A DNA stretch of 32,014 nt from an uncultured Flavobacteriaceae bacterium (GTDB lineage: Bacteria > Bacteroidota > Bacteroidia > Flavobacteriales > Flavobacteriaceae): the NCBI GenBank assembly GCA_905479835.1, contig CAJQNZ010000031.1:1-32014 (forward strand), written 5' to 3'. The notes beneath the pieces were generated by a model, which worked only from the letters and a program-made list of their open reading frames with translations, was not told where the DNA came from and ran no database searches. A program made the translations under genes and the position numbers. Of the stretch, positions 1 to 32,014 are shown in pieces (within the stretch, counting starts at the first letter, position 1; every line of letters starts with the position of its first letter).

Positions 1-224
1 ACTTCTTGAACTGAAACGGTATCTATTCCAGATCCCATTTTTTTAAATAATTTCAGGATATTGGTATTGGAAAGTGCCTTGACAGCATAGTTTATTTTTA
101 AACTTTTAACTGTAGAAAATGCATCTGTAATACGTTTATACTGTGATTCAATCTTAGAAGCATCATAAACATACAGTGGACTATCATATTTTTTTACCAA
201 TGATAATAAGAGATTTCTTTCCAT
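1..224 (-). CDS. lysA: Diaminopimelate decarboxylase, N-terminal part (cut by window edge)
   Basis: Reading the complement from the ATG at 222-224 gives 74 residues beginning MERNLLLSLVKKYDSPLYVY and containing YAVKALSN. That motif is the pyridoxal-phosphate lysine segment of fold-type III decarboxylases, with Lys49 the expected Schiff-base lysine. The family converts meso-diaminopimelate to lysine in the cytoplasm, the last step of lysine synthesis. The C-terminal part lies beyond the left edge, so the second active-site half (HxGS, CESGD-type motifs) cannot be checked. A related PLP decarboxylase acting on another amino acid (for example carboxynorspermidine or arginine) is possible, but the short N-terminus with the LYVYD segment is typical of LysA. 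A terminator for the upstream pepT gene lies just before the start, so lysA probably has its own promoter. Confidence 0.85.
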   Translation of the reverse strand, partial: MERNLLLSLVKKYDSPLYVYDASKIESQYKRITDAFSTVKSLKINYAVKALSNTNILKLFKKMGSGIDTVSVQE

Positions 225-256
225 TTAATTCTTGTTTTAATAGTGTAAATATAAAT

Positions 257-285
257 AAAGCCCTGAATAAATAATCCAGGGCTTT
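257..285 (-). terminator. Intrinsic terminator after pepT
   Basis: AAAGCCCTG at 257-265 pairs perfectly with CAGGGCTTT at 277-285, with an 11-nt loop. On the minus strand the stem is followed by a T-rich stretch (TTTATTTATATTT). It lies 20 bases after the pepT stop codon and before lysA, so it ends pepT transcription. Confidence 0.8.
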
Positions 286-306
286 ACGAATTAGTTCATT
301 ATTATA

Positions 307-1540
307 TTATCTATATTTCTTGGCTGTTAATTCTGCTATTTTGACAATTACATCTACTGCTTTTTGCATAGACTCTACTGGTACATATTCGTATCGTCCG
401 TGAAAATTATGTCCGCCAGCAAAAATATTTGGGCAAGGAAGTCCTTTATAAGACAATTGTGACCCATCAGTTCCTCCTCGTATTGCTTTAATCAGAGGTT
501 TTATTCCAAGTTCATTCATTGCTTCTTCTGCAATATCTACAATATGCATCACTGGTTCTATCTTTTCACGCATATTAAAATATTGATCTTTTATTTCAAT
601 GTTTACTGATTCTAGTCCAATTCGTGCGTTTAATTTACCTGCTATTTTATGAAATATTTTTTTTTCTTTCTTCAAATAATTTTTTGTCATGATCTCGAAT
701 GATATATTCTAAATTTGTTTTCTCTACTGATCCATTTATTGTATGCAAATGAAAAAAACCTTCATAACCATCCGTTGCTTGAGGAATTTCATTACTAGGC
801 AGTAGACTTATAAATTCATTGGCAATTAAGGTTGAATTGATCATTTTTCCTTTGGCATATCCTGGATGAACAATCTTTCCTGTGATAGTCACAACAGCAC
901 TAGCAGCATTAAAATTTTCATATTCTAGTTCGCCTATCTGACTTCCATCCATTGTATAAGCCCAAGCGGCACCAAACTTTTCAACGTCAAATAAATGTGC
1001 TCCTTTTCCTATTTCTTCATCTGGAGTGAAAGCAACACGTATTTTTCCATGTTTGATTTCTGGATGCTGAAGTAAGTATTCCATGGCTGTGACAATTTCT
1101 GTGATTCCTGCTTTATCATCTGCACTTAAAAGTGATGTTCCATCGGTTGTGATGATAGTTTGCCCTTTGTATTGTAATAAATCATCGAAATAGTCAGGAG
1201 ACAATACAATGTTTTGTTCTTTATTTAGTAATATGTCTTTTCCATCATAATTATGATGAATCTGAGGATTGATATTGGTTGCATTAAAATCTGGACTTGT
1301 ATCCATATGAGAAATAAACCCAATTGTAGGAACTTCATAATCAAGATTGCTTGGTAAAGTTGCCATTAGGTAACAATTTTTATCAAGTGTTATTTCTTGC
1401 ATACCTATTTGTTTCAATTCTTTGACCAACACATGTGCAAGATCCCATTGTTTTTCTGTACTTGGAAATGCAGGATTGTTTGGGTCTGATTGTGTATCAA
1501 TCTTTATATATTTAAAGAAACGATCAATTATATGTTGCAT
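307..1540 (-). pseudogene. pepT: Peptidase T (aminotripeptidase), interrupted by a frameshift
   Basis: Peptidase T removes N-terminal residues from tripeptides in the cytoplasm using two zinc ions (M20B family). The first frame (647-1540, 297 codons) has the ligand motif HMDTSPD (His78, catalytic Asp80), SADDKAG (Asp141), TPDEEIG (Glu175/Glu176) and the later MDGS. It ends shortly after [12 protein letters not shown]. The second frame (307-690) carries the rest: IRGGTDGS and the terminal zinc motif [14 protein letters not shown]. Together they give about 410 residues, the normal PepT length. The break is an A9 run (+ strand T9 at 657-665); one base fewer restores a continuous frame ([14 protein letters not shown]). 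Both halves otherwise look intact, so this is either a very recent mutation, a sequencing error in a homopolymer, or a gene rescued by slippage. A lipoprotein gene lies 24 bases upstream on the same strand. Confidence 0.88.
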
Positions 1541-1564
1541 TGGAATGAGTTAAGTAGTCATTAA

Positions 1565-2116
1565 TTATAAAACTTCTATTGTATTGAATAGGTTTATCGA
1601 TTCACATATTCTTTGCTCTATGTTTTGACCTCCGTATATTTTTGATGTGGCCAATATATAAGAATCAACTGTGGTTTTTATATATAGATTGAAAACATGT
1701 TGTTCCATTTCACCTTTTATTCCTTTTGATAAATTCCAAAATGCTGGATATTCTAGAAAAGTTACATGTTTGGAATTGATTATTTCATAACCTGTTTGAG
1801 AATTAATTTTTGAAATGAATTCTTCATTAAAATCCAGTTCGCCCATTTTCCAAGACGCATTAATAATATAGGATTCTGAAAGTTGTTTTATCGTATCTGC
1901 AGTTAATATGTCAGATTGGTATTCGTCAAAATATAATTTCGTTTTCCATTTTAGAGGAATGGTAATCTTATAATTTTTCTTAATGTCTCTATACTCTTTA
2001 GAATTTGACAAGTCTAAAGAATTGGAGCAGTTAAATTCCTTTTTTAAAGAGGACTCTTTATAACAGCTTGTTGCTGCAACTAAAATAAACAACAGTATCA
2101 CTAGTTTCAATTTCAT
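1565..2116 (-). CDS. Hypothetical lipoprotein
   Basis: A 183-residue protein with a lipoprotein signal peptide: Lys-rich start, a hydrophobic stretch (LVILLFILVAA) and lipobox AATSC with Cys18 as the lipidated residue. The mature part holds a segment beginning about residue 50 (ITIPLKWKTKLYFDEYQSD) that is reminiscent of small PsbP/DUF1795-like beta-sandwich domains often found in bacterial lipoproteins, but I cannot assign it firmly. No catalytic motif is visible. It lies 24 bases upstream of pepT on the same strand and could be co-transcribed with it. Function unknown; probably an envelope protein anchored in the inner or outer membrane. Confidence 0.8.
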   Translation of the reverse strand: MKLKLVILLFILVAATSCYKESSLKKEFNCSNSLDLSNSKEYRDIKKNYKITIPLKWKTKLYFDEYQSDILTADTIKQLSESYIINASWKMGELDFNEEFISKINSQTGYEIINSKHVTFLEYPAFWNLSKGIKGEMEQHVFNLYIKTTVDSYILATSKIYGGQNIEQRICESINLFNTIEVL

Positions 2117-2358
2117 ATTGTGTTTTTAGTGCTATATAATTATCAAAAATAATTAAAATAATTAATGAAAAGAGTATTGTTTTACTGAAAGTTTAGATGA
2201 ATTTGGATTTATGTATTTACACGGAATAACTTTGTCTGTGCTCAATTAACATTTTAATCAATAATTCATAAAAATTAAATACGATGCTTTTTAAAGATAA
2301 AAGTATTTAATATTTTGCAACGTATTTAATTTTTAATTTTTTGAATAAATAGAAAAGT

Positions 2359-3273
2359 ATGAAAGCACTCGTAATTTCTGGAGGAGGAAGTAAAGGAGCA
2401 TTTGCAGGAGGAGTTGCGGAGTATCTTATGAAACAGAAACGTAAAGAATATGATATTTTCTTAGGAACCTCAACAGGAAGTCTTATGGTCTCTCACCTTG
2501 CCCTTGGAAAAATTGACGCTTTAAAAGACATGTATACTTCTGTTAATCAAAGAACTATATTTAGCAATAATCCATTTGTTATAAAAAAAGTTGGAGGAAG
2601 TAAAGTGGTAACTATCAATCACTTAAATGTTGTTTGGAATTTTATAATGGGCAGAAAAACATTTGGTGAGAGTAAAAACTTAAGAAAATTAATACGTAAA
2701 AAATTCAGTGAAGCAGAATTCAATGTTTTAAAATCTAGTGTTAAAGAAGCGGTTGTTACAGTTTCTAATATTACTCACAACAAAATTGAATATAAATCTG
2801 TCAACGACTATAATTATATAGATTTTTGTGATTGGATATGGGCTTCCTGTAATTATGTGCCTTTTATGAGTTTACTTCATAAAGATGGATGCCATTATGC
2901 TGATGGAGGTCTAGGCTGTCTTGTTCCTATCAGAGAAGCGATCAATAGAGGTGCAAAAGAGGTTGATGTTATTATTCTTGAAACAGAAGTTACACAAGTA
3001 AACAGAATCCCTGCTAAAAATCCTTTTTCAGTATTAATGAACTCTTTTGCATTTATGATGGATCAAGTTGAAAAACATAATATTACTATAGGGAAATTAT
3101 CTGCAAAACAAAATGATGTAAAATTGAATCTATATTATACGCCTACAATTCTTACTACCAATTCTCTCGTGTTTGACAAGAAACTTATGACTCAGTGGTG
3201 GAAAGACGGTTATAAGTATGCTGCAACACAGCATAATGATGATATGAATACGTTAAAATTTGATTTAGAATAA
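2359..3273 (+). CDS. Patatin-like phospholipase
   Basis: A 304-residue protein with the patatin signature. The oxyanion-hole loop GGGSKG is at residues 8-13, the nucleophile elbow GTSTG gives Ser38, and the DGG motif gives catalytic Asp182, completing the Ser-Asp dyad. The family hydrolyses acyl esters of phospholipids or other lipids. There is no signal peptide or membrane segment, so a cytoplasmic or peripheral enzyme is likely. The length matches short stand-alone bacterial patatins and there is no beta-barrel (PlpD-type) extension. No CD-NTase or other anti-phage partner is adjacent, so a housekeeping lipid role is favoured over a CapV-type effector. Its 3' end overlaps the convergent S41 protease gene by 9 bases. 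Substrate not predictable. Confidence 0.9.
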   Translation: MKALVISGGGSKGAFAGGVAEYLMKQKRKEYDIFLGTSTGSLMVSHLALGKIDALKDMYTSVNQRTIFSNNPFVIKKVGGSKVVTINHLNVVWNFIMGRKTFGESKNLRKLIRKKFSEAEFNVLKSSVKEAVVTVSNITHNKIEYKSVNDYNYIDFCDWIWASCNYVPFMSLLHKDGCHYADGGLGCLVPIREAINRGAKEVDVIILETEVTQVNRIPAKNPFSVLMNSFAFMMDQVEKHNITIGKLSAKQNDVKLNLYYTPTILTTNSLVFDKKLMTQWWKDGYKYAATQHNDDMNTLKFDLE

Positions 3274-4710
3274 TTCGTTTAAAAATAATTCTTTGTCAAA
3301 ATACATATTGGATCCTGTCTGAGTTTCTCTTTTAGAATTGGTTATCTCTTTAGTTTCAATTCCTTTCTTAATTGATAATCCTCTATTTCCTGTAGTTATG
3401 AAAGATATTGCACGTTCAAGTAAAGGTTCAGTTGCTTGACCTAGTATTCCAAGATTCCCTCTATTTTCTGGAAATAAAATATCTGGAGTAATACCATTAA
3501 TTTGATTTTCTCCAAGTTTATTTTGAACTTCAAGAACCAATGGTTGCATTGCCCAAGTATGATTAGGATTGGCGTCATCTATTCTATAGTTATCAGAATC
3601 ATATAGAGTTACAGATCCGAAAATTTTACCTTCAGTAGTTTCTCCGATTGTAGTCACATCTATATAAGGTTTCAATCCGTTAATTACTAATTCACTTGCA
3701 GATGCAGAACTTTCAGTTGTAAGAATTACTACTTTAGATAGAGTAAGGCTGTTTATTGAAGATGCGCCTTCTATTTGATCAACAAAATTATTTATAATAA
3801 GATCAGGTCTGTTTTCTTCAAAATAAGTCTGCCATTTATCATTCCATCTTTCTTGGATAAATAATTCATCATTAAATTGCCCAGTAATCATACTAGCAAG
3901 ATAAGTAGCAGTTCGAACTGATCCTCCAGGATTATATCTTAAATCAACTACTAGATCAGTAATACCATCACTTTTAAAAGAACCAAATACATCATTTAAT
4001 TGTGTGTCAAATGCATTGGTAAATCCATTATACATTATATAACCTATTTTTTTATCAGAAACCTCAATAACACTTGAAGTTAAAATTGGGTTCTCTTGAA
4101 CTTCGCTTATGGTTAAATCAACACTTATTCCATTGTCAGTAGGAATTCCATTATTATAATCTGCCAAATTTAATGTATATGAATTTGTCATAAACAGCAA
4201 TTGTCTATAATTACCTGTTGTTAAAGGAGATCCATTTACAGCATGAAAAATATCACCTCTTTGAATGTTTTTACCAGCTGCATCAGATCCAGGAATAATA
4301 TATTTTACATATCCGTAAATATCAGAGTCACTTCCTGTTTCAAATACCAATCCAAATTCTACACCATTTGTTCCTGAGATACCTTCATTCAACTGTTGAC
4401 TTAAAGCAATGTAATCATCAACAATCCATGAATATTGATCCACATTAGGATAATCATTTAACAAACCTGAATAAAATAACTCTTCTGGATCTTTACCTTC
4501 TAAAAAAGCGTTTAATTGTTCTTGAGAAGAAAAGCGTGTATCTGCTAAATCAGGAATTTCTTGTTGCCATAAGTAGTAAGCATTTAATCCTTTCCAAATA
4601 AAATTCTGAACTTCCAGATCAGAAGAAACATTATTTTCATCATCATTTTCACAACTCATTCCAATAAAAAGTAGCGTAAATAATGCAATTATAGAGGTAA
4701 ATCTTTTCAT
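3265..4710 (-). CDS. S41 family (C-terminal processing-type) peptidase, lipoprotein
   Basis: A 481-residue lipoprotein: signal peptide with lipobox IGMSC (Cys20), followed by an acidic stretch ENDDENN typical of Bacteroidota export signals that send lipoproteins toward the cell surface. A PDZ-like segment spans about residues 110-205 (NGVEFGLVFE, RGDIFHAVNG). The protease core follows: VVDLRYNPGG at 254-263, then TESSASASELV with Ser337 as nucleophile and TTEGK with Lys362 as base, the expected 25-residue Ser-Lys spacing of the CtpA/tricorn family. The substrate is unknown. It is transcribed away from the ECF sigma operon, with which it shares a 144-bp control region, suggesting membership in the same envelope-stress response. 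Its 3' end overlaps the patatin gene. Confidence 0.93.
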   Translation of the reverse strand: MKRFTSIIALFTLLFIGMSCENDDENNVSSDLEVQNFIWKGLNAYYLWQQEIPDLADTRFSSQEQLNAFLEGKDPEELFYSGLLNDYPNVDQYSWIVDDYIALSQQLNEGISGTNGVEFGLVFETGSDSDIYGYVKYIIPGSDAAGKNIQRGDIFHAVNGSPLTTGNYRQLLFMTNSYTLNLADYNNGIPTDNGISVDLTISEVQENPILTSSVIEVSDKKIGYIMYNGFTNAFDTQLNDVFGSFKSDGITDLVVDLRYNPGGSVRTATYLASMITGQFNDELFIQERWNDKWQTYFEENRPDLIINNFVDQIEGASSINSLTLSKVVILTTESSASASELVINGLKPYIDVTTIGETTEGKIFGSVTLYDSDNYRIDDANPNHTWAMQPLVLEVQNKLGENQINGITPDILFPENRGNLGILGQATEPLLERAISFITTGNRGLSIKKGIETKEITNSKRETQTGSNMYFDKELFLNELF

Positions 4711-4779
4711 TTCTTATATATAAAGTTATGTTATTACAGTCGCAAGATAATCAAAATGATTACAAATTTATATCCTGCA

Positions 4780-4805
4780 TGTTACAAAAACGTAACTTGG
4801 TCGTC
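4780..4805 (+). promoter_or_regulatory. Candidate ECF-sigma-dependent promoter (autoregulation)
   Basis: TGTTAC at 4780-4785 and CGTC at 4802-4805 are spaced by 16 bases, resembling the -35/-10 arrangement of ECF sigma promoters (AAC-type -35, CGTC-type -10). The -35 half also forms an inverted repeat, GTTAC-AAAAAC-GTAAC (4781-4796). It lies 50 bases upstream of the sigma gene ATG. The assignment is by motif only. Confidence 0.45.
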
Positions 4806-4854
4806 ATAATTGTAACCGAAGCATAAAAAGTGAGGTTATCAACTAACTATACTA

Positions 4855-5370
4855 ATGAAACAAACAGAGTTTTTAAGCACCGTAATGCCATTTAAAGATA
4901 AAGTCTATAGACTGGCAAAACGATTGTTGGTTTCTAGCGAAGAAGCAGAAGATGCAACTCAAGAGTTGTTTATGAAACTTTGGAATAGAAAAGAAAAATT
5001 AAGTTCTTATAAAAGCGTAGAAGCATTTGCAATGACAATGACTAAAAATTATTGTTTTGATAGGTTAAAGTCAAAACAAGCATCAAATATGTCATTGGTT
5101 CATAGTAATTATAAAGAGAACGGAACTTCCCTTGACAGGAAAACAGAATTGAATGATAGCGTATCAATAGTACATCAATTGATCGCAAAGTTGCCTGAGC
5201 AACAGAGAATGATTATTCAACTGAGAGATGTAGAAGATTACGAATACGAAGAGATTGGCAAAGTACTTGATATAAAGCCTACAGCGGTTAGAGTAGCCTT
5301 ATCAAGAGCCAGAAAAAAAATAAGAGAACAATTGATTAAACAACACAATTATGGAATCAATCAAAATTGA
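4855..5370 (+). CDS. RNA polymerase ECF-type sigma-70 factor
   Basis: A 171-residue sigma factor with only regions 2 and 4. Region 2 (about residues 10-75) includes AEDATQELFMKLWNRKEKL; region 4 (about 115-165) includes LPEQQRMIIQLRDVEDYEYEEIG and the recognition helix IKPTAVRVALSRARKKI. The family redirects RNA polymerase to stress-response promoters and is held inactive by a membrane anti-sigma factor. The next gene starts inside its last 20 bases and encodes a small single-pass membrane protein, fitting that pattern. An ECF-like promoter just upstream suggests self-activation. Downstream are two DUF4252 envelope genes, and an S41 protease is divergent, so the regulon is probably concerned with the cell envelope. 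Confidence 0.93.
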   Translation: MKQTEFLSTVMPFKDKVYRLAKRLLVSSEEAEDATQELFMKLWNRKEKLSSYKSVEAFAMTMTKNYCFDRLKSKQASNMSLVHSNYKENGTSLDRKTELNDSVSIVHQLIAKLPEQQRMIIQLRDVEDYEYEEIGKVLDIKPTAVRVALSRARKKIREQLIKQHNYGINQN

Positions 5371-5776
5371 GCAATTATTAGAGAAATATGAAAATGCAGA
5401 AACTTCACTACATGAAGAAGCAGTATTAAAAGATTATTTCAATAATAATGATGTTGCTCCACATTTACAACAATACCAAGCATTGTTTGGATATTATGCT
5501 GAAAGTAAGAACGAAAACTATTCGAAACCTATCCGATTAAACACTAAAAAGCAGCATTGGAAATGGTTATCAGTAGCAGCCTCAGTAGTATTACTATTCA
5601 GCGTTTACACAGGTTATACTAATAACCAAGAAAAAAAAGAAGCAAAAATTGCTTTTGAAAACACTCAGATGGCCTTTCAATTATTGTCAAAAAACATGAA
5701 AAAAGGGACAACAGCAATGGCATATCTAGGTGAGTATGAAACAACAACAAATAAAATTTTTAAAAACAACAAGTAA
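5351..5776 (+). CDS. Single-pass membrane protein, putative anti-sigma factor
   Basis: A 141-residue protein. The N-terminal 70 residues are cytoplasmic-looking and charged (EQLLEKYENAETSLHEEAVLKDYF, then VAPHLQQYQALFGYYAES), one transmembrane helix lies at about 71-90 (WLSVAASVVLLFSVYTG), and a short C-terminal part follows. The start lies inside the sigma gene (20-base overlap), a translationally coupled arrangement typical of sigma/anti-sigma pairs. The N-terminal pattern with a tandem DYF...VAPHL...Y is common to small proteins beside Bacteroidota ECF factors. There is no zinc anti-sigma motif (HxxxCxxC). The anti-sigma role is inferred from position and topology, not from a recognised domain. 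Confidence 0.7.
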   Translation: MESIKIEQLLEKYENAETSLHEEAVLKDYFNNNDVAPHLQQYQALFGYYAESKNENYSKPIRLNTKKQHWKWLSVAASVVLLFSVYTGYTNNQEKKEAKIAFENTQMAFQLLSKNMKKGTTAMAYLGEYETTTNKIFKNNK

Positions 5777-5788
5777 AATAAGAGAATC

Positions 5789-6331
5789 ATGAGAAAATTA
5801 ATTTTAATAATCGCAATCGCATTAGTACCCTTCATAGGAAATGCACAAACATCAATTTTTAATAGTTTTGATGGTAATGACGACGTAACAACAATATCAG
5901 TAAGTAAAAAGGCTTTTCAATTAATGGCAAAGTTTGGAGGAGCAAGTGATGAAGCAAGAGAATATGCTGAAATGGTAAAAAACCTTGATGGATTAAAAGT
6001 TTTCACTACAGAAAACAAATCTATAGCTACTGATATGCAAGGTAAAGTAGATAAATATTTAAAATCTTCAAGTTTATATGAACTTTTCAGCGTTAATGAT
6101 AAAGATGCTAATGTAAAGATTTATGTGAAAGAAGGTAGAGATGAAGACCATGTAAAGGAACTATTAATGTTCGTTAATGGAATTGAAAAACATGCCGGAA
6201 AGATTGAAGGTCGATCTGCTGAAGCAGTAATTGTTTCCTTAACAGGAGATATTGACTTGAATAAGATTGCTGAATTGACAGAAGGATTGAATATTTCTGG
6301 ATCAGAGCACCTGAAAAACGCTAAAAAATAA
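5789..6331 (+). CDS. DUF4252 domain protein, exported
   Basis: A 180-residue protein with a classical signal peptide (MRKLILIIAIALVPFIGNAQ, cleavage likely after NAQ). The mature part has the features of DUF4252: an N-terminal segment with VSKKAFQLMAKFGG, a KNLDGLKVFTTEN strand region and a C-terminal AVIVSLTGDIDLNKIAELT segment. DUF4252 is a Bacteroidota family of periplasmic or lipid-anchored proteins with no known biochemical activity. It follows the putative anti-sigma gene by 12 bases and is followed by a hairpin and a second DUF4252 gene. A stress-response envelope role is inferred from the operon only. Confidence 0.85.
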   Translation: MRKLILIIAIALVPFIGNAQTSIFNSFDGNDDVTTISVSKKAFQLMAKFGGASDEAREYAEMVKNLDGLKVFTTENKSIATDMQGKVDKYLKSSSLYELFSVNDKDANVKIYVKEGRDEDHVKELLMFVNGIEKHAGKIEGRSAEAVIVSLTGDIDLNKIAELTEGLNISGSEHLKNAKK

Positions 6332-6343
6332 AAAGAATTATTG

Positions 6344-6390
6344 AGCCACTTCAGTTAGAAAAAGAGAATCTAAATGAAGTGGTTATTTTA
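6344..6390 (+). terminator. Hairpin between the two DUF4252 genes (attenuator or partial terminator)
   Basis: CCACTTCA (6346-6353) pairs with TGAAGTGG (6375-6382), and after one mismatch TTAGA (6355-6359) pairs with TCTAA (6369-6373), giving a 13-bp stem with a 9-nt loop, followed by TTATTTTA. It ends 12 bases before the ATG of the second DUF4252 gene. The weak T-tract suggests partial read-through or an mRNA-stabilising/processing hairpin rather than full termination. Confidence 0.6.
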
Positions 6391-6402
6391 AAACTAAATA
6401 TT

Positions 6403-6951
6403 ATGAAACCATTTTTTAAATATTTCGGAATATTGGCAATGATTGCCTTATTCACAATTTCTTGTGATGATGATCCATCTTTGCAGAAATACTATGTTGA
6501 AAGTCAAGAAAGCACTGATTTTATTTCATTGGACATTCCAGCGAGTGTTATTCAATTAAAAGAAGGAAGTACCTCAGCAGATGCAACCCAAACACTAGAA
6601 ACAATTAAAAAAGTAAATTTTTTAGGATTTAAATTGACAGATAAAAATGTTACTGAGTTTACTGCTGAAAAATTAAAAGTAAAACAGATATTAAAGAACC
6701 CAAAATACCAAGAATTAATTTCTATGGGTGGAGGAAATAAATCTTTAACTGTTAAGTTTTTAGGCGAAGATAATGCAATAGACGAAGTAATTATTTTTGG
6801 ATCAGATAAAGAACAAGGATTTGCTCTTGTAAGAGTTTTGGGGTCAAACATGGATCCTGCTAAAATGATGCAACTAGCACAAGAAATTAAAGTCGATGGA
6901 GAAGATAGTTCGCTTAAGCAACTAGAATCTTTTATGAAAAACTTAAATTAA
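6403..6951 (+). CDS. DUF4252 domain lipoprotein
   Basis: A 182-residue lipoprotein from the ATG at 6403. The signal peptide (FFKYFGILAMIALFTIS) ends in lipobox TISC with Cys21, then the acidic DDDPS typical of Bacteroidota lipoprotein export. The mature part resembles the first DUF4252 protein in size and layout: ETIKKVNFLGFKLTD, NPKYQELISMGGGNKSLTVKF and a C-terminal AQEIKVDG. An upstream in-frame GTG at 6379 is rejected because it lies in the hairpin stem and would spoil the signal peptide. The pair of one soluble and one lipid-anchored paralogue in the same ECF operon suggests they act together in the envelope. No activity is known. Confidence 0.85.
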   Translation: MKPFFKYFGILAMIALFTISCDDDPSLQKYYVESQESTDFISLDIPASVIQLKEGSTSADATQTLETIKKVNFLGFKLTDKNVTEFTAEKLKVKQILKNPKYQELISMGGGNKSLTVKFLGEDNAIDEVIIFGSDKEQGFALVRVLGSNMDPAKMMQLAQEIKVDGEDSSLKQLESFMKNLN

Positions 6952-6971
6952 AATAAAACTTTACATTATTT

Positions 6972-7004
6972 AAAAGGCGCACTGATTTTATCAGTGCGCC
7001 TTTT
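6972..7004 (+). terminator. Strong intrinsic terminator of the sigma-DUF4252 operon
   Basis: AAAAGGCGCACTGA (6972-6985) pairs perfectly over 14 bp with TCAGTGCGCCTTTT (6991-7004) around a 5-nt loop, and the stem ends in T4. It lies 20 bases after the stop codon of the second DUF4252 gene. It is the most GC-rich stem in the window. Confidence 0.93.
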
Positions 7005-7077
7005 AACTTTAAATTAACGGCATAAAAATTGCAAATAAAGTTATAATTAACGTTTATTGTACACTTAAAGTAATTAT

Positions 7078-9501
7078 ATGACTCTAAATAGATTTTTGCC
7101 TTTTCTTATATTTTTTATTTCAATTTGCACATTTTCACAGTCTAATGTGTATCGTGCTGAAAAAGAAAAAATAAATAATTTGGTTCATACTAAATTGGAT
7201 GTGCGTTTTGATATTCCAAATTCTATACTAAAAGGAGAAGCATGGATTACACTTACTCCACACTTTTTCCCAAGTTCTAAAGTAACTCTAGATGCCAAAG
7301 GAATGATTATTCATTCTGTAACTATGAATGGAAACAAGTTGCCTTTCAATTATTTTGAAAAAAAATTGTTAGTTATTGACTTAGATAAAACGTATCAAAA
7401 AGAGGATGAATTTACAGTAAATATAAAGTATACTTCTCAACCAGATAACTTTAAAGCAGCTAAAAAAGGATTGTATTTTATTGATCCAAGAGATGAAAAT
7501 CCAAATAAACCGACGCAGATATGGACAGAAGGAGAAACGGAAAATAATAGTAAATGGTTCCCAACAATTGATTCTCCAAATCAAAAATCTTCTCAAGAAA
7601 TTTCACTAACCGTTCCAGAAAAATTTGTCACACTTTCCAATGGTTTATTGACAGAGCAAGTAATGAATACTGATGGTACAAGAACAGATACTTGGAAGCA
7701 AGAGCAAAAACACGCTCCTTATTTATTTTTTATAGCAGCAGGAGAGTTTAGCATTGTAAAAGATACTTGGAAAGGAAAAGAAGTTAACTATTATGTTGAA
7801 AAAGAGCAAGAACCATTAGCCAAAAATATATTTGGAAAAACACCAAGAATGCTTCAATTTTTTGAAGATTTATTGGGTATAGAATATCCATGGGATAAGT
7901 ATAGTCAAATTGTCGTGAGAGACTATATAAGTGGTGCAATGGAGAATACAACAGCAGTTATACATGGTACAAGCGCATATCAAGATGCAGGTGAATTGAT
8001 TGATAAGAACTCACAGGAATCAACTATATCACATGAAGTTATTCATCATTGGTTTGGGAATTTAGTTACTGCAGAGAGTTGGAGTAATCTTGCTATGAAT
8101 GAAGCGTTTGCCAACTATGGCGAATATTTGTGGAATGAACATGAATATGGTAAAGATATCGCAGATCATCAATTGATGAAAGATAAAAACAGGTATTTAA
8201 ATGGCGCAAATGAGAATAAAAAATTAATCCGTTTTAAATATGAAAGTACAGATGATTTATTTGATCAAGTTAGTTACGAAAAAGGCGGACTTATATTACA
8301 TATGCTGCGTGAATATCTTGGCGATAAACTATTTTTTGAAGGATTGAAAAAATATTTAACAATTTATAAATATGGTACTGCAGAATCTCATCAATTTAGA
8401 TTGGCATTAGAAGAAGTAAGTGGAAAAGACTTAAATTGGTTTTTTAATCAATGGTTTTTAGGAAAAGGACATCCGAAGTTGCAGGTTACAAGTATTGTAG
8501 GGCAATTTGAAAATAAAATTCAAGTCTATATAAGGCAAACTGAAAATGTGTTTGAATTTCCGATTACTATTGAAGTCTATGAAGAATTAGGTAAGTCATC
8601 TCATGAGGTTTGGGTAGATTCTTCGGAGGAAGTATTTGAGTTTGCAATTGGATCTAAAGTAAAGCTCGTCAATATAGGCTCTTCAGATACACTCCTGTCT
8701 GAAATAACACAACGCAAAACGCTAGATGAGTATTTATACCAATATAAGCATGCGACAAACTATATAGACAGAAGAGATGCAATAGTGTATTTATCAGAAC
8801 ATCAAGGGGATAAAAAAGTATTTCGAGTTATTTCAGAAGCACTTAATGATAAGTCAATGCACTTGAGAATATTGGCATTAGAAAAAATAGACTTTGTAAA
8901 TAAATACAGCAAAGGAGATGCAATAAAAGCAGTTGAGAATTTGGCAAAAAATGATCCAGAAACATTGGTTAAAGCTGCAGCAAATATAACGTTAGCAAAG
9001 TTGGTCGATCCAGCTTACATTTCTCATTTCACGAATGCTTTAAATAGTAAATCTTATAAAGTAATAGAAAGTGCAATCGTAGCATTGTATCAACTTGATA
9101 AGGAGAGTACATTGAAGAAAATAGAAATTTTGCCAGAAAAAATAAAGGACAAGATGTCTACTGTTTTAACTGGTTATTATCTTGGAAAAAAAGATGTTAA
9201 GAATATGAATTTTATATCAAAGCATTTAATTCAAGGCTTGTTTTTTACACAAGATAAAAAAACTGCCAATGCTTATAAGGATGCGTTTATTTGGATTTCA
9301 AAAAGTGATAATAAAGTTGCGATTTCTAATCTTGTGGAAAGTTTAACCAGTTCAGGAATAAAATTCAAGAAATTCGGAGGTGATGCTGCAGCGATGAATT
9401 TTTTACGACAAATGAATGCTATGCAGAAAGAAACCAATCATTCCAATGAAGAAGAATTAATTATGCTGATACGTAAAGGTATGGCACAACTTGTAGATTA
9501 A
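7078..9501 (+). CDS. M1 family zinc aminopeptidase, exported
   Basis: An 807-residue protein with a signal peptide (FLPFLIFFISICTFSQ). The M1 exopeptidase motif GAMEN is at 286-290 and the zinc site HEVIHHW-X-E is HExxH at 319-323 with the third ligand Glu342, 19 residues after His323, inside NEAFANYGEYLW. The family releases N-terminal residues from peptides. The catalytic M1 core covers about residues 30-470, and the C-terminal third contains helical repeats of HEAT type (for example RRDAIVYLSEHQGDKKVF, MHLRILALEKIDF, KAAANITLAKLVD). Periplasmic or surface location is expected. It stands alone after the terminator at 6972-7004, and its stop codon is one base from the stop of the convergent HTH gene. 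Function as a nutrient-scavenging peptidase is inferred. Confidence 0.95.
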   Translation: MTLNRFLPFLIFFISICTFSQSNVYRAEKEKINNLVHTKLDVRFDIPNSILKGEAWITLTPHFFPSSKVTLDAKGMIIHSVTMNGNKLPFNYFEKKLLVIDLDKTYQKEDEFTVNIKYTSQPDNFKAAKKGLYFIDPRDENPNKPTQIWTEGETENNSKWFPTIDSPNQKSSQEISLTVPEKFVTLSNGLLTEQVMNTDGTRTDTWKQEQKHAPYLFFIAAGEFSIVKDTWKGKEVNYYVEKEQEPLAKNIFGKTPRMLQFFEDLLGIEYPWDKYSQIVVRDYISGAMENTTAVIHGTSAYQDAGELIDKNSQESTISHEVIHHWFGNLVTAESWSNLAMNEAFANYGEYLWNEHEYGKDIADHQLMKDKNRYLNGANENKKLIRFKYESTDDLFDQVSYEKGGLILHMLREYLGDKLFFEGLKKYLTIYKYGTAESHQFRLALEEVSGKDLNWFFNQWFLGKGHPKLQVTSIVGQFENKIQVYIRQTENVFEFPITIEVYEELGKSSHEVWVDSSEEVFEFAIGSKVKLVNIGSSDTLLSEITQRKTLDEYLYQYKHATNYIDRRDAIVYLSEHQGDKKVFRVISEALNDKSMHLRILALEKIDFVNKYSKGDAIKAVENLAKNDPETLVKAAANITLAKLVDPAYISHFTNALNSKSYKVIESAIVALYQLDKESTLKKIEILPEKIKDKMSTVLTGYYLGKKDVKNMNFISKHLIQGLFFTQDKKTANAYKDAFIWISKSDNKVAISNLVESLTSSGIKFKKFGGDAAAMNFLRQMNAMQKETNHSNEEELIMLIRKGMAQLVD

Positions 9502-9502
9502 A

Positions 9503-9877
9503 TTAAGGTTTATAACTCTTAAAAGTGCCGTTTTTATAAAAAACAACAATTTTTTCAATTTCTGAATTTTCAAAAGAATTTTCTGAAATACTTGAAATTT
9601 TTATTTCTTCATTATCAAGAGATGGAGTGGGAGAAATATCTTTTTCGATAGTTTTCGGAAATTCACCTTTTCCATTCAATAACCAATACAATTCTACAGT
9701 AGGATATTTATCTAAAATCTTCATCACAAAATCTAAACTAGGTTTATTCCTTCCAGACAATAAATGTGAAATACTCGAGCGCTGCACATAAATAGAATCA
9801 GCCAATGCAGTTGCAGTTAAATGGTAATAATCCATAATTATTTTCAGTCTATCAGCAAATTCAAGATTGTTTACCAT
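9503..9877 (-). CDS. XRE/CI-like HTH transcriptional regulator
   Basis: A 124-residue protein with an N-terminal helix-turn-helix of the XRE/lambda CI type: FADRLKIIMDYYHLTATALADSIYVQRSSISHLLSGRNKPSLDFVMKIL at residues 7-55, followed by YPTVELYWLLNGKGEFP, a segment typical of the chromosomal flavobacterial HTH regulators of this class. The C-terminal 50 residues are low-complexity and charged and end in VVFYKNGTFKSYKP. No peptidase (LexA/CI-type) domain is present. The gene has a clear promoter (9900-9907) overlapped by a palindrome at 9878-9901 immediately before the ATG, indicating autorepression. A copy of the flanking motif lies before the divergent M14 gene, a likely second target. Confidence 0.88.
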   Translation of the reverse strand: MVNNLEFADRLKIIMDYYHLTATALADSIYVQRSSISHLLSGRNKPSLDFVMKILDKYPTVELYWLLNGKGEFPKTIEKDISPTPSLDNEEIKISSISENSFENSEIEKIVVFYKNGTFKSYKP

Positions 9878-9901
9878 TGTAACATATCAGTATATATTAC
9901 A
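9878..9901. promoter_or_regulatory. Palindromic operator for the HTH regulator
   Basis: TGTAACATAT (9878-9887), a 4-base spacer and ATATATTACA (9892-9901) form an inverted repeat with 9 of 10 pairs matching. It touches the start codon (9875-9877) and the -7 box of the HTH gene, so binding there would block initiation. TGTAACATTAT recurs at 10068-10078. Confidence 0.6.
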
Positions 9902-9930
9902 AAGGTAAACTTTGAGAGAGTCATATCCAA
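9900..9930 (-). promoter_or_regulatory. Bacteroidota-type promoter of the HTH regulator gene
   Basis: On the minus strand TACCTTTG (complement of 9900-9907) matches the TAnnTTTG -7 box exactly, and TTG (complement of 9928-9930) lies 20 bases upstream at the position of the -33 element. The ATG follows about 22 bases downstream of the -7 box. Confidence 0.7.
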
Positions 9931-10138
9931 TGATTTTTTAAAAACAATATTAAATTAAAACTTATACTTTATATAATTTATATTAAACAACTAAAATGCA
10001 GTTGATTAAATTGTTATTATAAATTTTAGTTATAGGAAGAATATACAGGTTTAACAAAAATAATATTGTAACATTATTGCAAAATAGAAATTCTAAAATT
10101 CATTTGCTTCTTATTACAAATGTAAACTTTTGATTGTT

Positions 10139-10146
10139 TATTTTTG
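10139..10146 (+). promoter_or_regulatory. TAnnTTTG -7 box directly before the M14 peptidase gene
   Basis: TATTTTTG matches the Bacteroidota -7 consensus and ends only 4 bases before the ATG at 10151. If used, transcription would start at or next to the start codon, giving a leaderless message. No clear -33 element at the usual distance was found, so an upstream promoter remains possible. Confidence 0.4.
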
Positions 10147-10150
10147 TTCT

Positions 10151-11239
10151 ATGAAAGTGATAGAATTAGATCAATTAGAAGCATGGTATTTGGAAAATTT
10201 TCAATCAAAATTGGTTGGAAGAAGAATACTATTTGATGATATTTCACCACTTATTGATAATTTGGATAAAATATTTCAAAGAGATATTGTTGGGTTTTCA
10301 GTAAATCAAATTCCTATTTACAAGATATCAATAGGAAATGGTTCAAAAAGAATTATGATATGGTCTCAAATGCACGGAAACGAGAGTACTGGAACGAAAG
10401 CTTTATTTGATTTGTTCAATTTTTTCTCAAACCCAAAAGAATTGTCACATTTTGCAGATACTATTTTAGAGAATTGTTCATTGATTTTCATTCCTATATT
10501 AAATCCAGACGGATCTATTAATTTTACACGAGAAAACGCTGAAACTATTGATTTAAATAGAGATGCAGTAGATTTAAAAGCGATAGAGAGTAGAATTCTA
10601 CGCACTATACTGGATGAATTTCAACCACAATTTTGTTTTAATCTACATGATCAACGTTCAATATTTAATGTTGAAAACACACATAATCCAGCAATATTAT
10701 CATTCCTAGCGCCTTCTGAAGAAAAAACTAGGAAAGTAACCCAAGGGAGGAAAGAAACCATGAGTGTCATCGTAAGTATGAATGATTTATTACAACAAGA
10801 AATTCCAAATTGCATAGGTAGATATACAGATGAATTTTATCCAACAGCTACTGGTGATAATTTTCAAAAACTAGGTCATAATACGATTCTTATTGAAGCA
10901 GGACACTTCCCTAACGATTATCAAAGAGAAATTACTCGAAAACTTAATTTTTATGCCCTTCTACAAGGAATATATACAATTTCTGTTGAAAACCAATATA
11001 GAAATTGGAAGCATTATTTTAACATACCTAATAATGATAAGAAGTTTTTTGATATTATTTATAGAAATACAAAAATCATAGAGAACGGTAAGGATCAAAT
11101 AACGAATATTGGAATTGTATTTAAATATAAAATTGAAAATGATAAGTTAATTCAATATGAAGAGTATGAAAAGAAAGGAGATCTTACATCCTATTTTGGA
11201 CATATAGAGATTGATTTAAATAATAAATCGATTTCGTAA
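10151..11239 (+). CDS. M14 family zinc carboxypeptidase-like protein
   Basis: A 362-residue protein from the ATG at 10151. Zinc ligands are His75 and Glu78 in the HGNESTG motif and His166 in NLHDQR, with the catalytic Glu249 in IEAGHF. An intermediate NPDGS...IDLNRDA segment carries the Asn-Arg pair that binds the substrate carboxylate in M14 peptidases. There is no signal peptide, so the protein is cytoplasmic. A longer start at TTG 10130 is unlikely because the -7 promoter box lies inside that extension. M14 members in this group cleave C-terminal residues or peptidoglycan-type amide bonds; the substrate cannot be told. The upstream region repeats the motif found at the divergent HTH repressor promoter, suggesting control by it. 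Confidence 0.88.
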   Translation: MKVIELDQLEAWYLENFQSKLVGRRILFDDISPLIDNLDKIFQRDIVGFSVNQIPIYKISIGNGSKRIMIWSQMHGNESTGTKALFDLFNFFSNPKELSHFADTILENCSLIFIPILNPDGSINFTRENAETIDLNRDAVDLKAIESRILRTILDEFQPQFCFNLHDQRSIFNVENTHNPAILSFLAPSEEKTRKVTQGRKETMSVIVSMNDLLQQEIPNCIGRYTDEFYPTATGDNFQKLGHNTILIEAGHFPNDYQREITRKLNFYALLQGIYTISVENQYRNWKHYFNIPNNDKKFFDIIYRNTKIIENGKDQITNIGIVFKYKIENDKLIQYEEYEKKGDLTSYFGHIEIDLNNKSIS

Positions 11240-29173: not shown

Positions 29174-29260
29174 AATATAATTTCTCAATTTTATTCAATC
29201 ACTTCTCTTTTAATTTTTTATAAAAATTATTTATATTGCAAGAAATAAGCCTCATGCTAC

Positions 29261-29340
29261 ATTGAAAGTAAAAATGGACATGTGGTTAAATTCACTAGTA
29301 ACTAGTAGTGTTTTTTTTGTTACTACTAATCCATTTCAAT
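29261..29340 (+). promoter_or_regulatory. Structured leader upstream of the WS/DGAT gene with mutually exclusive hairpins
   Basis: Three overlapping pairings are seen. A terminator-like stem CACTA (29293-29297) with TAGTG (29306-29310) is followed by T8 (29311-29318). A competing stem TAGTAAC (29296-29302) with GTTACTA (29319-29325) would put the T8 in its loop. An outer stem AAATGGA (29272-29278) with TCCATTT (29330-29336), or alternatively ATTGAA (29261-29266) with TTCAAT (29335-29340), closes the element five bases before the ATG. It could be an attenuator, or simply the terminator of the EamA operon. Confidence 0.4.
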
Positions 29341-29345
29341 AAAAT

Positions 29346-31181
29346 ATGGCAAAGAAAATAGATATTAAGGACCTTGTGCAAGATTCATTGGATTCTTCAA
29401 TAAAACAAATTTCGGGATCTGATGCAGGTTTTTTATATGCAGAATCTCCTACAAGTCCTATGCATATTGCCACTTTAACAATTGTTGAAGGTTCGTTGAA
29501 ATACAATGATTTTAAAGCAATGTTGGCTTCAAAATTGCATTTAGTTCCGAAATTCAGACAGCGTCTGCTTAATGTTCCTATGAATCTTGACTATCCTTAT
29601 TGGGTTGATGACCCTAATTTTGATATCGACTTACATTTTAATAGAGTTAAACTCCCAGATCCAGCAGACTGGAAGACATTAAGAGAAATGACATCCACGC
29701 TATTCAGTGCACCACTAGACCTAAGAAGACCTTTGTGGTCAATAAACTTTATAGAAGGTTTAGATAATATTTCACAAATTCCTAAGGGATCTGTTGCAAT
29801 TATTACCAAAGTTCATCATGTTGTAATTGATGGTAGTTCTGGTGTAGGAATTATGGGTCTTTTATTTGATAAAAATAAAGAGGATAAAGACAAAGTAATT
29901 CCAGAGCCTGTACCTTATGTTCCAGAGCCATTGCCAGACGAGTTTAGTCTGTTTTTAAAAAGTTCTTATAAATTCCTGCAAAACCCACTTAAAGCACCTA
30001 AAACGATAGGTGAAACTATTTTTACATTGATGAAAAATAGAACACAAAGTAAGTTTTCAGTTATCAAGCCTTATTCTAAATCAGGATTTTCTGTACCAAA
30101 AACAATTTTTAATGAATCAATATCTCCCAAGAGGACTTGGGGAACAGCTATTCTATCCTTTGAAAGAATTAATGTGTTGCGAAAAACAATGGAAGTCAGT
30201 GTAAATGATATTATTGTTGCAATATGTGCTGGAGGGATTCGTAAATATTTACTAGAAAGAGATAAACTTCCTTCACAATCATTGGTTGCTAATATTCCCA
30301 TTTCTATCAGATCCAAAGATGAAAATCAAGAAATGAATAATCAGATTTCTAGTATGATGGTTCAGATTGCTACACATATTGCAGATCCTATTGAACGCCT
30401 TGAATATATTCAAGAACAGACAACAATGGGGAAGAATAGAAATAAAGCTTTAGGTGCTAAAACATTGGCTAAAATGGCAGATGTAGTTCCGTTTGGATTG
30501 GCAAATCTAGCAACTAGTTTATATAGCAAGTACAATATTAAAGAATTGCATAGACCTCCATTTAATGTTACAATAACCAATGTTCCAGGGCCAAAAGGAA
30601 TTTTATATTTAAAAGGTCATAAAATAGTTTCAATTTTTGGATTGACTCCTGTTTTAGATGGATTTGGTTTAATAATCGCAGCATTTAGTTATAATGGACA
30701 AGTAAGTATCACAACCACATCCGATGCTAAAACAATGCCTGATGCCGATAAATTCTCACGTTACATTCGTGAATCTGCAAATGAATTGGAGAAAATTATT
30801 AAAAAGAGAGGAAAGAGTAAGGAAATTAAGAAAGAAACAATAATTAAAAGCACCCCTTTTTTTACAGCATTAAAAAAACATTTAAAAACTCAAGAAAAAT
30901 CATTAAGTAAATTCAGAGGTCTCTATAGTATTGAAATTGCTATGGATTTAGGCTCTGCTGCTTGGGAACTCGACTTTACAAAAGAAATTCCTTCACTTAA
31001 AAAGAAAAAGACTCTGAAACCTTTGGTTTCAATGAATATAAATGATGCTAATCTACTTGCTTTACATAAAGGAAATTTATTACTTGAAGAGCTTATGATT
31101 CAAGGTAGACTAAAACTCAATGGTACTGATAAAAATAAGGCAAAATTTTTAGAATTTTTATCTGAATTTTTAAGTAGGTAA
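29346..31181 (+). CDS. Wax ester synthase/diacylglycerol acyltransferase fused to an SCP2-like domain
   Basis: A 611-residue protein. Residues 24 to about 480 are a WS/DGAT: start ISGSDAGFLYAESPTSPMHIATL, PLW motif at 129-131, active-site HHVVIDG at 157-163 (His157/His158, Asp162), SVNDIIVAICAGGIRKYL and NVTITNVPGP, all conserved in the family. It joins an acyl-CoA to a fatty alcohol or diacylglycerol, making neutral storage lipid. After a basic linker, residues about 505-608 look like an SCP2 sterol/lipid-carrier domain: AMDLGSAAWELDF, then VSMNINDANLLALHKGNLLLEELMIQGRLKLNG. That C-terminal domain is not part of the normal enzyme. The next gene, one base later, is a monoacylglycerol-lipase-like hydrolase. 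Confidence 0.9.
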   Translation: MAKKIDIKDLVQDSLDSSIKQISGSDAGFLYAESPTSPMHIATLTIVEGSLKYNDFKAMLASKLHLVPKFRQRLLNVPMNLDYPYWVDDPNFDIDLHFNRVKLPDPADWKTLREMTSTLFSAPLDLRRPLWSINFIEGLDNISQIPKGSVAIITKVHHVVIDGSSGVGIMGLLFDKNKEDKDKVIPEPVPYVPEPLPDEFSLFLKSSYKFLQNPLKAPKTIGETIFTLMKNRTQSKFSVIKPYSKSGFSVPKTIFNESISPKRTWGTAILSFERINVLRKTMEVSVNDIIVAICAGGIRKYLLERDKLPSQSLVANIPISIRSKDENQEMNNQISSMMVQIATHIADPIERLEYIQEQTTMGKNRNKALGAKTLAKMADVVPFGLANLATSLYSKYNIKELHRPPFNVTITNVPGPKGILYLKGHKIVSIFGLTPVLDGFGLIIAAFSYNGQVSITTTSDAKTMPDADKFSRYIRESANELEKIIKKRGKSKEIKKETIIKSTPFFTALKKHLKTQEKSLSKFRGLYSIEIAMDLGSAAWELDFTKEIPSLKKKKTLKPLVSMNINDANLLALHKGNLLLEELMIQGRLKLNGTDKNKAKFLEFLSEFLSR

Positions 31182-31182
31182 A

Positions 31183-32014
31183 ATGAAATATACAACGCAT
31201 ACTTTTAAAACAAGAGATCAAGAAAACATTTTTTATTATAAGTGGGATTCTTTGCCATCTATTGCTATCAAAGGAATTATTCAGATTTCTCATGGTATAG
31301 GTGAGCATGCAGGAAGATACCAACGAATTGCTGAATTATTTCAAGAACAAGGCTACATTGTATATGCCAATGATCATAGAATTCATGGTAGAAGTGCCAA
31401 TTCTATTGAAATGATGGGAATTTATGAGGGTGAAGATTATTTTGAAGATGCAACTGAAGATATGAGGGAATTAACACTCATCATAAAAAAACAACATCCA
31501 ACTAAAAAAATTATTTTATTTGGACATAGTATGGGTTCTCTGCTCAGTAGAGAATACGTGACAAGGTATGGGCAAGATTTAGAAGCGCTTATTTTATCTG
31601 GAACTGCAAGTTATATGAAGGGAATAGGAACATTGGGAATGCTAAGTGCTAATATGATTCAGGTTTTTAAAGGCAGGAGTAAACAAAATAATTTTTTAAA
31701 GTCTATTTCCTTTTCTGAGTTCAATAAAAATTTTAAACCAAATAGGACTGCATTTGATTGGTTATCGAACGATGAAAGTCAAGTAGACCTATTTGCTGCA
31801 GACCCTTATAGAACAGAAGATTTTTCATTAAGTATATTTCAAGATATTATTAAAGGAAGTAAAAAAATAAATGCAAAAAACACGTTTAATAGTACACCTA
31901 AAAGTTTGCCAATTTATGTTTTTTCAGGAGATAAAGATCCAGTAGGAGAAATGGGTAATGGAGTGAAAAAGATTACACGACAATATACTAATGCAGGCAT
32001 TAAAGATGTAACAT
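31183..32014 (+). CDS. Alpha/beta hydrolase, monoacylglycerol lipase-like, incomplete at window end
   Basis: From the ATG at 31183 an open frame of 277 codons runs to the window end. It starts MKYTTHTFKTRDQENIFYYKW and shows the Hydrolase_4 (lysophospholipase/MGL) features: oxyanion segment ISHGIGEHAGRYQRIA, DHRIHGRS, nucleophile elbow GHSMGS with Ser115, and the acid FSGDKDPVG with Asp about 252. The catalytic His lies beyond the edge. It would hydrolyse monoacylglycerols or related esters. The start is one base after the WS/DGAT-SCP2 stop, so the two are co-transcribed and likely act on the same lipid pool. Confidence 0.9.
   Translation, partial: MKYTTHTFKTRDQENIFYYKWDSLPSIAIKGIIQISHGIGEHAGRYQRIAELFQEQGYIVYANDHRIHGRSANSIEMMGIYEGEDYFEDATEDMRELTLIIKKQHPTKKIILFGHSMGSLLSREYVTRYGQDLEALILSGTASYMKGIGTLGMLSANMIQVFKGRSKQNNFLKSISFSEFNKNFKPNRTAFDWLSNDESQVDLFAADPYRTEDFSLSIFQDIIKGSKKINAKNTFNSTPKSLPIYVFSGDKDPVGEMGNGVKKITRQYTNAGIKDVT

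Follow-up and report, generated by a model that had tools for sequence, protein, structure and literature searches.

A WS/DGAT acyltransferase with a C-terminal SCP2 domain opens a putative triacylglycerol operon in Flavobacteriaceae

The window analyzed here is a whole stretch of 32,014 nucleotides from an uncultured Flavobacteriaceae bacterium (GenBank assembly GCA_905479835.1, contig CAJQNZ010000031.1, hereafter C31), and close to its end lies a gene for a wax ester synthase/diacylglycerol acyltransferase (WS/DGAT) that bears an SCP2 domain at its C terminus and is followed by further genes of a putative triacylglycerol (TAG) operon. The gene, its parts, and its immediate neighbor are as follows.

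29346..31181, + strand: WS/DGAT-SCP2 fusion gene, 611 amino acids with an ATG start, gene 1 of the operon, with Pfam and NCBIfam matches.
29412..30212, + strand: WS/DGAT catalytic domain WS_DGAT_cat (PF03007), residues 23 to 289, E value of 1.4e-50, 173 bits against a cut-off of 23.6.
29814..29834, + strand: HHxxxDG motif, residues 157 to 163, kept in 25 of 25 distinct fused homologs.
30339..30788, + strand: C-terminal WS/DGAT domain WS_DGAT_C (PF06974), residues 332 to 481, E value of 2.4e-29, 102.7 bits against a cut-off of 20.7.
30795..30845, + strand: variable linker from the enzyme to the SCP2 domain, residues 484 to 500, mean conservation of 0.475, with a predicted local distance difference test (pLDDT) score below 50 at residues 489 to 497 of the full-length model.
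30846..31178, + strand: SCP2 domain (PF02036), residues 501 to 611, domain-model pLDDT of 92.1, matched to PDB entry 1c44 by Foldseek and by Z score.
31183..32014, + strand: alpha/beta hydrolase 1 (Hydrolase_4, lipase-like), cut by the window end, its remainder lying on contig C61 (locus L066).

Profile searches confirm that the product of the open reading frame at 29346 to 31181 is an acyltransferase of the WS/DGAT family ending in an SCP2 domain. The family identity, first claimed in an original prediction made from the sequence alone, holds above the cut-offs of both Pfam domains and of the NCBIfam model TIGR02946, which covers residues 22 to 483 of the 611-residue protein with 399.8 bits (cut-off, 309.95), and the solved relatives nearest to the enzyme part by sequence are PDB entries 7nxg and 6chj. 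We take HHxxxDG at residues 157 to 163 to be the WS/DGAT active-site motif. Across the 25 distinct fused homologs (three of 28 fused sequences, L024, L025, and L029, repeat named loci and were excluded from these counts and from the tree), WS_DGAT_C has the highest mean conservation, 0.877, among the stretches measured.

By sequence, the SCP2 assignment is modest: PF02036 matches residues 507 to 593 with 25.5 bits against a cut-off of 21.3, and in a sequence search with the fusion protein, the SCP2 chains in the PDB match weakly (E value of 0.06 or worse). The profile is matched at an E value of ≤0.01 in 24 of the 25 distinct fused homologs, and the score of L020 (20.5 bits) falls slightly below the cut-off. 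An AlphaFold2 model of residues 498 to 611, computed with 16 sequences, has a mean pLDDT of 92.1 and a predicted template modeling score of 0.84; its best Foldseek match is rabbit SCP2 (1c44; E value of 3.9e-8), with a Z score of 15.9 and a root mean square deviation of 1.9 over 111 residues, and comparison with mosquito SCP2 carrying a bound C16 fatty acid (1pz4) gives a Z score of 15.9 and a deviation of 1.8 over 106 residues. The separate domain model alone was used for this fold comparison; the full-length AlphaFold2 model has a mean pLDDT of 57.9, and its enzyme part is too poor for the geometry of the SCP2 pocket and active site. The domain model supports an SCP2 fold for residues ~501 to 611, in line with the predicted C-terminal domain but with a shifted boundary, in that residue 490, where the extra region was said to begin, lies within the variable linker and the domain extends from near residue 501 onward. 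The linker, of ~17 residues, would fit a mobile tether, because it is variable and low in model confidence. The same fold is known from stand-alone SCP2 and from the C terminus of enzymes such as MFE-2 and alkylsulfatases; in the present protein, it is joined to a WS/DGAT acyltransferase.

The last 141 bases of the window are the exact start of contig C61 of the same genome (L066, positions 1 to 11126), and the operon is thus split by the assembly between C31 and C61. Its full order is WS/DGAT-SCP2, two alpha/beta hydrolases, a fusion protein of ~1,080 amino acids that we term GPAT-HAD-AGPAT (glycerol-3-phosphate acyltransferase, HAD domain, and acylglycerol-phosphate acyltransferase), and GpsA, with everything from the truncated part of hydrolase 1 through GpsA lying on C61. 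This TAG operon setting, which runs past the window end, formed no part of the original prediction. In a survey of gene order over 19 loci (the window plus L003 to L020), the genes behind WS/DGAT-SCP2 share its strand: hydrolase 1 comes next in all 19, hydrolase 2 is present in 17, and the GPAT-HAD-AGPAT protein and the start of GpsA are present in 14; the loci that lack some of these genes are cut at contig or locus ends. Intergenic gaps range from -34 to 44 bases (exceptions being 116 in L013 and 99 in L076), and the genes presumably form one transcript.

The three-part enzyme contains GPAT_C, HAD, and two Acyltransferase stretches. All of the 22 distinct copies that were selected by length and a single acyltransferase motif contain both HX4D motifs, and the HAD motif reads D-x-D-R-T in 20 of them and D-M-D-K-T in the other two; the GPAT part scores 446 bits with NF002886, below the cut-off of 721. 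By domain content, the locus is a Kennedy-pathway cluster in which glycerol-3-phosphate supply, GPAT, AGPAT, phosphatase, and DGAT are adjacent, and the operon would in principle suffice to convert dihydroxyacetone phosphate (DHAP) to TAG. This requires the HAD domain to act as a phosphatidate phosphatase, as it presumably does; Galvan et al. 2023 (PMC10351704) also propose this role while describing it as open. In L068 (positions 1 to 3182), a glycerol kinase gene and a gene resembling a flavin adenine dinucleotide-dependent glycerophosphate oxidase/dehydrogenase adjoin the TAG cassette, an arrangement that we count toward fat storage, and glycerol-kinase-like genes also occur, by similarity, in L070, L071, and L073.

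WS/DGAT was detected in 11 of 397 sampled Flavobacteriaceae genomes, 10 times in frames of 611 to 633 amino acids and once cut by a contig end; in the window's genus, the full-length gene is present in 4 of 14 genomes. Samples of the order and the phylum yielded 4 of 395 genomes (all Flavobacteriaceae) and 21 of 395 genomes (counting that of the window), respectively. An SCP2 search of the 11 family carriers returned exactly one match per genome, always in the WS/DGAT gene: in 10 carriers it falls in the WS/DGAT frame and in genome G136 on the gene's other piece, on a different contig. The fused form is therefore the only form of WS/DGAT seen in the sampled Flavobacteriaceae. The three-part enzyme has the same distribution, being present in 11 of 395 family genomes, namely, the same 11 carriers (one copy is cut by a contig end), with matches of 1,358 to 1,847 bits; the next best match in the family sample has 73 bits. 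It was not found (best match, 98 bits) in 19 of the 20 genomes with WS/DGAT outside the family, the twentieth, G541, having a broken match and being excluded from this search as well as from the SCP2 search.

To place the fused enzymes, we compared the 25 distinct fused sequences in a phylogeny with 22 unfused enzymes from other families of Bacteroidota (414 to 491 residues after start choice) and six plasmid-borne enzymes from other phyla, excluding L030 (cut by a contig end) and L050 (the match in G541, with five stops). The fused enzymes form one group with support of 100/100, and a fully supported branch splits the unfused Bacteroidota WS/DGATs from all other members of the tree, which is rooted at its midpoint and was flagged by the tree program for long branches and heterogeneous composition. 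Matches to WS/DGAT were obtained in 42 plasmid records, none of which covers 80% of the fused query, and all of the matches listed (30 of 42) end by residue 481 of that query. The single fused clade, together with its patchy occurrence, suggests one fusion event and lateral arrival.

The fusion itself had already been described. Galvan et al. 2023 (PMC10351704) report WS/DGAT-SCP2 fusions in Polaribacter, Ulvibacter, Dokdonia, and other genera, describe Bacteroidota enzymes of the same architecture and length (613 ± 15 amino acids), and assign PF02036 to two of their four metagenomic sequences. By its own terms, the original prediction is refuted if such a fusion proves to be a common, previously reported form, as it does here, and its suggestion that the fused form may define a distinct architecture survives in part: the fused enzymes are one well-supported clade and the only form in the family samples, but the same architecture was printed in 2023 from several genera of the family. 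Since it is already in print, the fusion alone is of little surprise.

Related gene clusters are likewise known. Galvan et al. (PMC10351704) list Kennedy clusters in Actinomycetota, Alphaproteobacteria, and Gammaproteobacteria, and the Rhodococcus TAG cluster of atf9, plsB, and plsC (HAD-AGPAT), as given there, places WS/DGAT near GPAT and HAD-AGPAT genes, as here. The M. paragordonae locus has the same arrangement. In both Rhodococcus (PMC10351704) and M. paragordonae, however, the acyltransferases are separate genes, whereas in the Flavobacteriaceae cassette GPAT and HAD-AGPAT are fused. For Bacteroidota, Galvan et al. note one neighboring AGPAT/hydrolase gene; for this phylum, the passages drawn on here mention neither a GPAT part nor GpsA, and neither the hydrolases nor the second module described below, and their figure S9B may show part of this set (PMC10351704). 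The whole cassette was not found in print in a search of the open-access literature. The present analysis extends this picture by the operon that includes GpsA and the three-part enzyme, by the module linked to it, by the co-occurrence, and by the grouping of the fused enzymes in one clade, and we regard the cassette as a modestly interesting variant of known TAG gene clusters.

The linked module follows GpsA on C61.

L066, 5706-9511: second module, comprising a 171-amino-acid protein that belongs to no known family, three helical proteins related to one another, and two regulators, one of BTAD type and one of TetR type (TetR_C_23).

The module lies downstream of GpsA in L066 (the window's genome), L071, and L076; in eight other regions (L067 to L070 and L072 to L075, of which L070 is the L006 locus and L075 the L019 locus), it lies upstream of WS/DGAT together with an ABC1-type kinase, which is confirmed by Pfam in L070 alone, and L011 and L013 also have it upstream. 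Two regions, L072 and L077, are cut in this survey, and in L074 and L073, antisense frames were chosen in place of the long helical gene and of the small gene preceding it, respectively. The genes upstream of WS/DGAT in Polaribacter were considered as a candidate second module and rejected, as they proved unrelated to it on comparison.

Searching 324 family genomes with the long helical protein returned 48 matching genomes, 9 of them WS/DGAT carriers. Matches in these carriers begin within the first 13 residues, and those in the other 39 genomes begin at residue 88 or beyond, in the helix-hairpin-helix part. Two carriers outside the 48, G349 and G352, hold the gene (in L067 and L072) and were presumably not drawn in the sample. 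It is present in all eight further carriers, with stops reported inside the matches of four (L116, L119, L121, and L122), and at least five of the eight carry it ~10 kilobases downstream of WS/DGAT, as judged by agreement of contig numbers with record names; in the genome of L012, it is on another contig. A profile comparison links the two small helical proteins to the N-terminal part of the long protein (probability of 98% and E value of 2.1e-13). Part of the long protein weakly resembles the phasins of polyhydroxyalkanoate (PHA) granules, scoring 44.6 bits with NF045508 (cut-off, 250) and 17.7 with PF05597 (cut-off, 28.8). A PHA synthase (PhaC_N) was not found in any of the 11 carriers, a Caulobacter control being matched, and any granule would therefore not consist of PHA. 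On a Caballeronia plasmid (L106, 7432-9593), a gene annotated as a phasin family member directly precedes an unfused WS/DGAT, which we also count on the side of fat storage.

The explanation that best accounts for these data, and in which we have moderate confidence, is a fat-storage cassette with a linked module, the final enzyme of which carries a tethered lipid carrier; the cassette was probably acquired laterally, and the WS/DGAT-SCP2 enzyme probably makes storage fat. Under this scheme, GpsA would make glycerol-3-phosphate from DHAP, and the GPAT and AGPAT parts of the fusion would acylate it to lysophosphatidate and then to phosphatidate (roles taken from the known families), which the same protein, by way of its HAD domain, probably dephosphorylates to diacylglycerol. 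WS/DGAT, acting as a diacylglycerol acyltransferase, would add the third acyl chain, the last step of TAG synthesis. The hydrophobic pocket of the SCP2 domain most likely accommodates an acyl chain or diacylglycerol, which the domain would shuttle between the membrane or droplet surface and the active site; it is plausible, as the original prediction proposed, that it delivers acyl-CoA to the enzyme or removes the product. The two alpha/beta hydrolases probably help to break the fat down again, and the helical proteins, the BTAD-type and TetR-type regulators, and, in one of the gene orders, the ABC1-type kinase may coat and control the droplets. The data show the domains, the fold, the gene order, the co-occurrence, and the single clade of fused enzymes; the single transcript, the substrate, the direction of transfer, the coating of droplets, and the functions of the hydrolases and the HAD domain are what we infer.

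Several observations count against this explanation. The SCP2 domain evolves faster than the enzyme part (mean conservation of 0.587 versus 0.797 and 0.877), and its ligand may therefore be unspecific or its role structural. Neither an acyl-CoA synthetase nor an acyl-CoA-binding protein was found among the cassette genes scanned. The small helical proteins match no family above cut-off, and the phasin matches of the long one fall at residues 125 to 269, outside the N-terminal part that it has in common with the small proteins. Because these matches are below cut-off and outside the shared part, we offer the droplet-coat role as a guess, made from the size, helical content, and gene neighbors of these proteins.

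A fast-changing domain that retains ten invariant residues over 25 homologs could also be a docking or stabilizing module, one that anchors the enzyme to a droplet or membrane or joins it to a second protein of the operon, and SCP2-like folds do occur in alkylsulfatases (Z scores of 10 to 13) and, more weakly and near background, in Eis-type acetyltransferases (Z scores of 7 to 8). We nevertheless consider such a role unlikely, given the close resemblance of the fold to ligand-bound SCP2 (1pz4) and the hydrophobic positions that recur throughout the domain in the 25 fused homologs. Nor do we give much weight to the possibility that the principal products are wax esters, formed from fatty alcohols, with the SCP2 domain handling the long-chain alcohol or the wax. 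It draws on the fact that WS/DGAT enzymes often act as both wax ester synthase and diacylglycerol acyltransferase, two activities that the TIGR02946 model does not tell apart; a search for fatty acyl-CoA reductase (PF07993) matched all 14 control genomes and so says nothing on wax-ester capacity. A further possibility, in which the enzyme esterifies some other alcohol (a carotenoid, glycolipid, or sterol-like lipid) and the operon is devoted to a specialized lipid instead of storage fat, accords with the promiscuity of WS/DGAT enzymes and the many lipids that SCP2 pockets take, but is very improbable, as the other Kennedy-route genes come next in every locus of sufficient length.

Extended to its full scope, the fat-storage explanation would describe a laterally spread, self-contained fat-droplet island in Flavobacteriaceae, comprising an operon leading from DHAP to TAG, two fused enzymes, and a new droplet-coat family with its regulators, a tentative proposal that we place a little short of an even chance. 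If true, it would give Bacteroidota, a phylum in which the making and storing of these neutral lipids are termed unexplored by Galvan et al. (PMC10351704), a bacterial lipid-droplet system that does without PHA. Many carriers of the cassette are marine flavobacteria, and a complete fat-storage cassette would therefore bear on how such bacteria endure periods without food and on marine carbon storage. With its tethered SCP2 domain, the enzyme also lends itself to testing whether acyltransferase throughput is increased by a carrier, which would be useful for lipid engineering.

Outside the family, 14 of 23 places with WS/DGAT were retrieved for a comparison of neighboring genes. In eight of the 14 loci, which come from other families of Bacteroidota (L092, at 8749-9189; L093; L094; L095; L097; L099; L100, at 5077-5505; and L103, at 6261-6689), a gene of 143 to 147 amino acids, belonging to one homologous family, lies 0.6 to 2.0 kilobases from the catalytic domain of an unfused WS/DGAT and is convergent with WS/DGAT in every case; because these loci are related by descent, they are not eight independent events. 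The copies in L092 to L095 score narrowly above the SCP2 cut-off (22.3 to 23.0 versus 21.3 bits), and of five copies scanned, that of L092 passes, that of L097 falls below, and those of L099, L100, and L103 have no match. Comparison of the profiles of this family and the fused SCP2 domain is not significant (probability of 0.3%). We therefore set aside the Rosetta-stone argument, by which a separate SCP2-like neighbor would correspond to the fused domain, on the grounds of that result and of the convergent genes, and retain it only as a lead.

Two elements precede the operon within the window, of which the first is as follows.

29232..29239, + strand: putative promoter element TATATTGC, of the form TAnnTTGC, upstream of the operon.

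In 19 of 25 loci, TAnnTTGC occurs within the 120 nucleotides upstream of the WS/DGAT-SCP2 gene, against a mean of 0.7 and a maximum of 4 over 200 letter shuffles; the pattern was chosen after inspection of the very regions in which it was counted. A general flavobacterial promoter pattern is found five times in the window against 4.0 expected and is thus no commoner than chance. The second element, which was not seen in the upstream regions of relatives when these were inspected by eye, is an inverted repeat at 29303-29328, shortly 5′ of the start codon, with 7-base arms (TAGTAGT and ACTACTA) and a 12-base spacer, and is possibly a site for a regulator.
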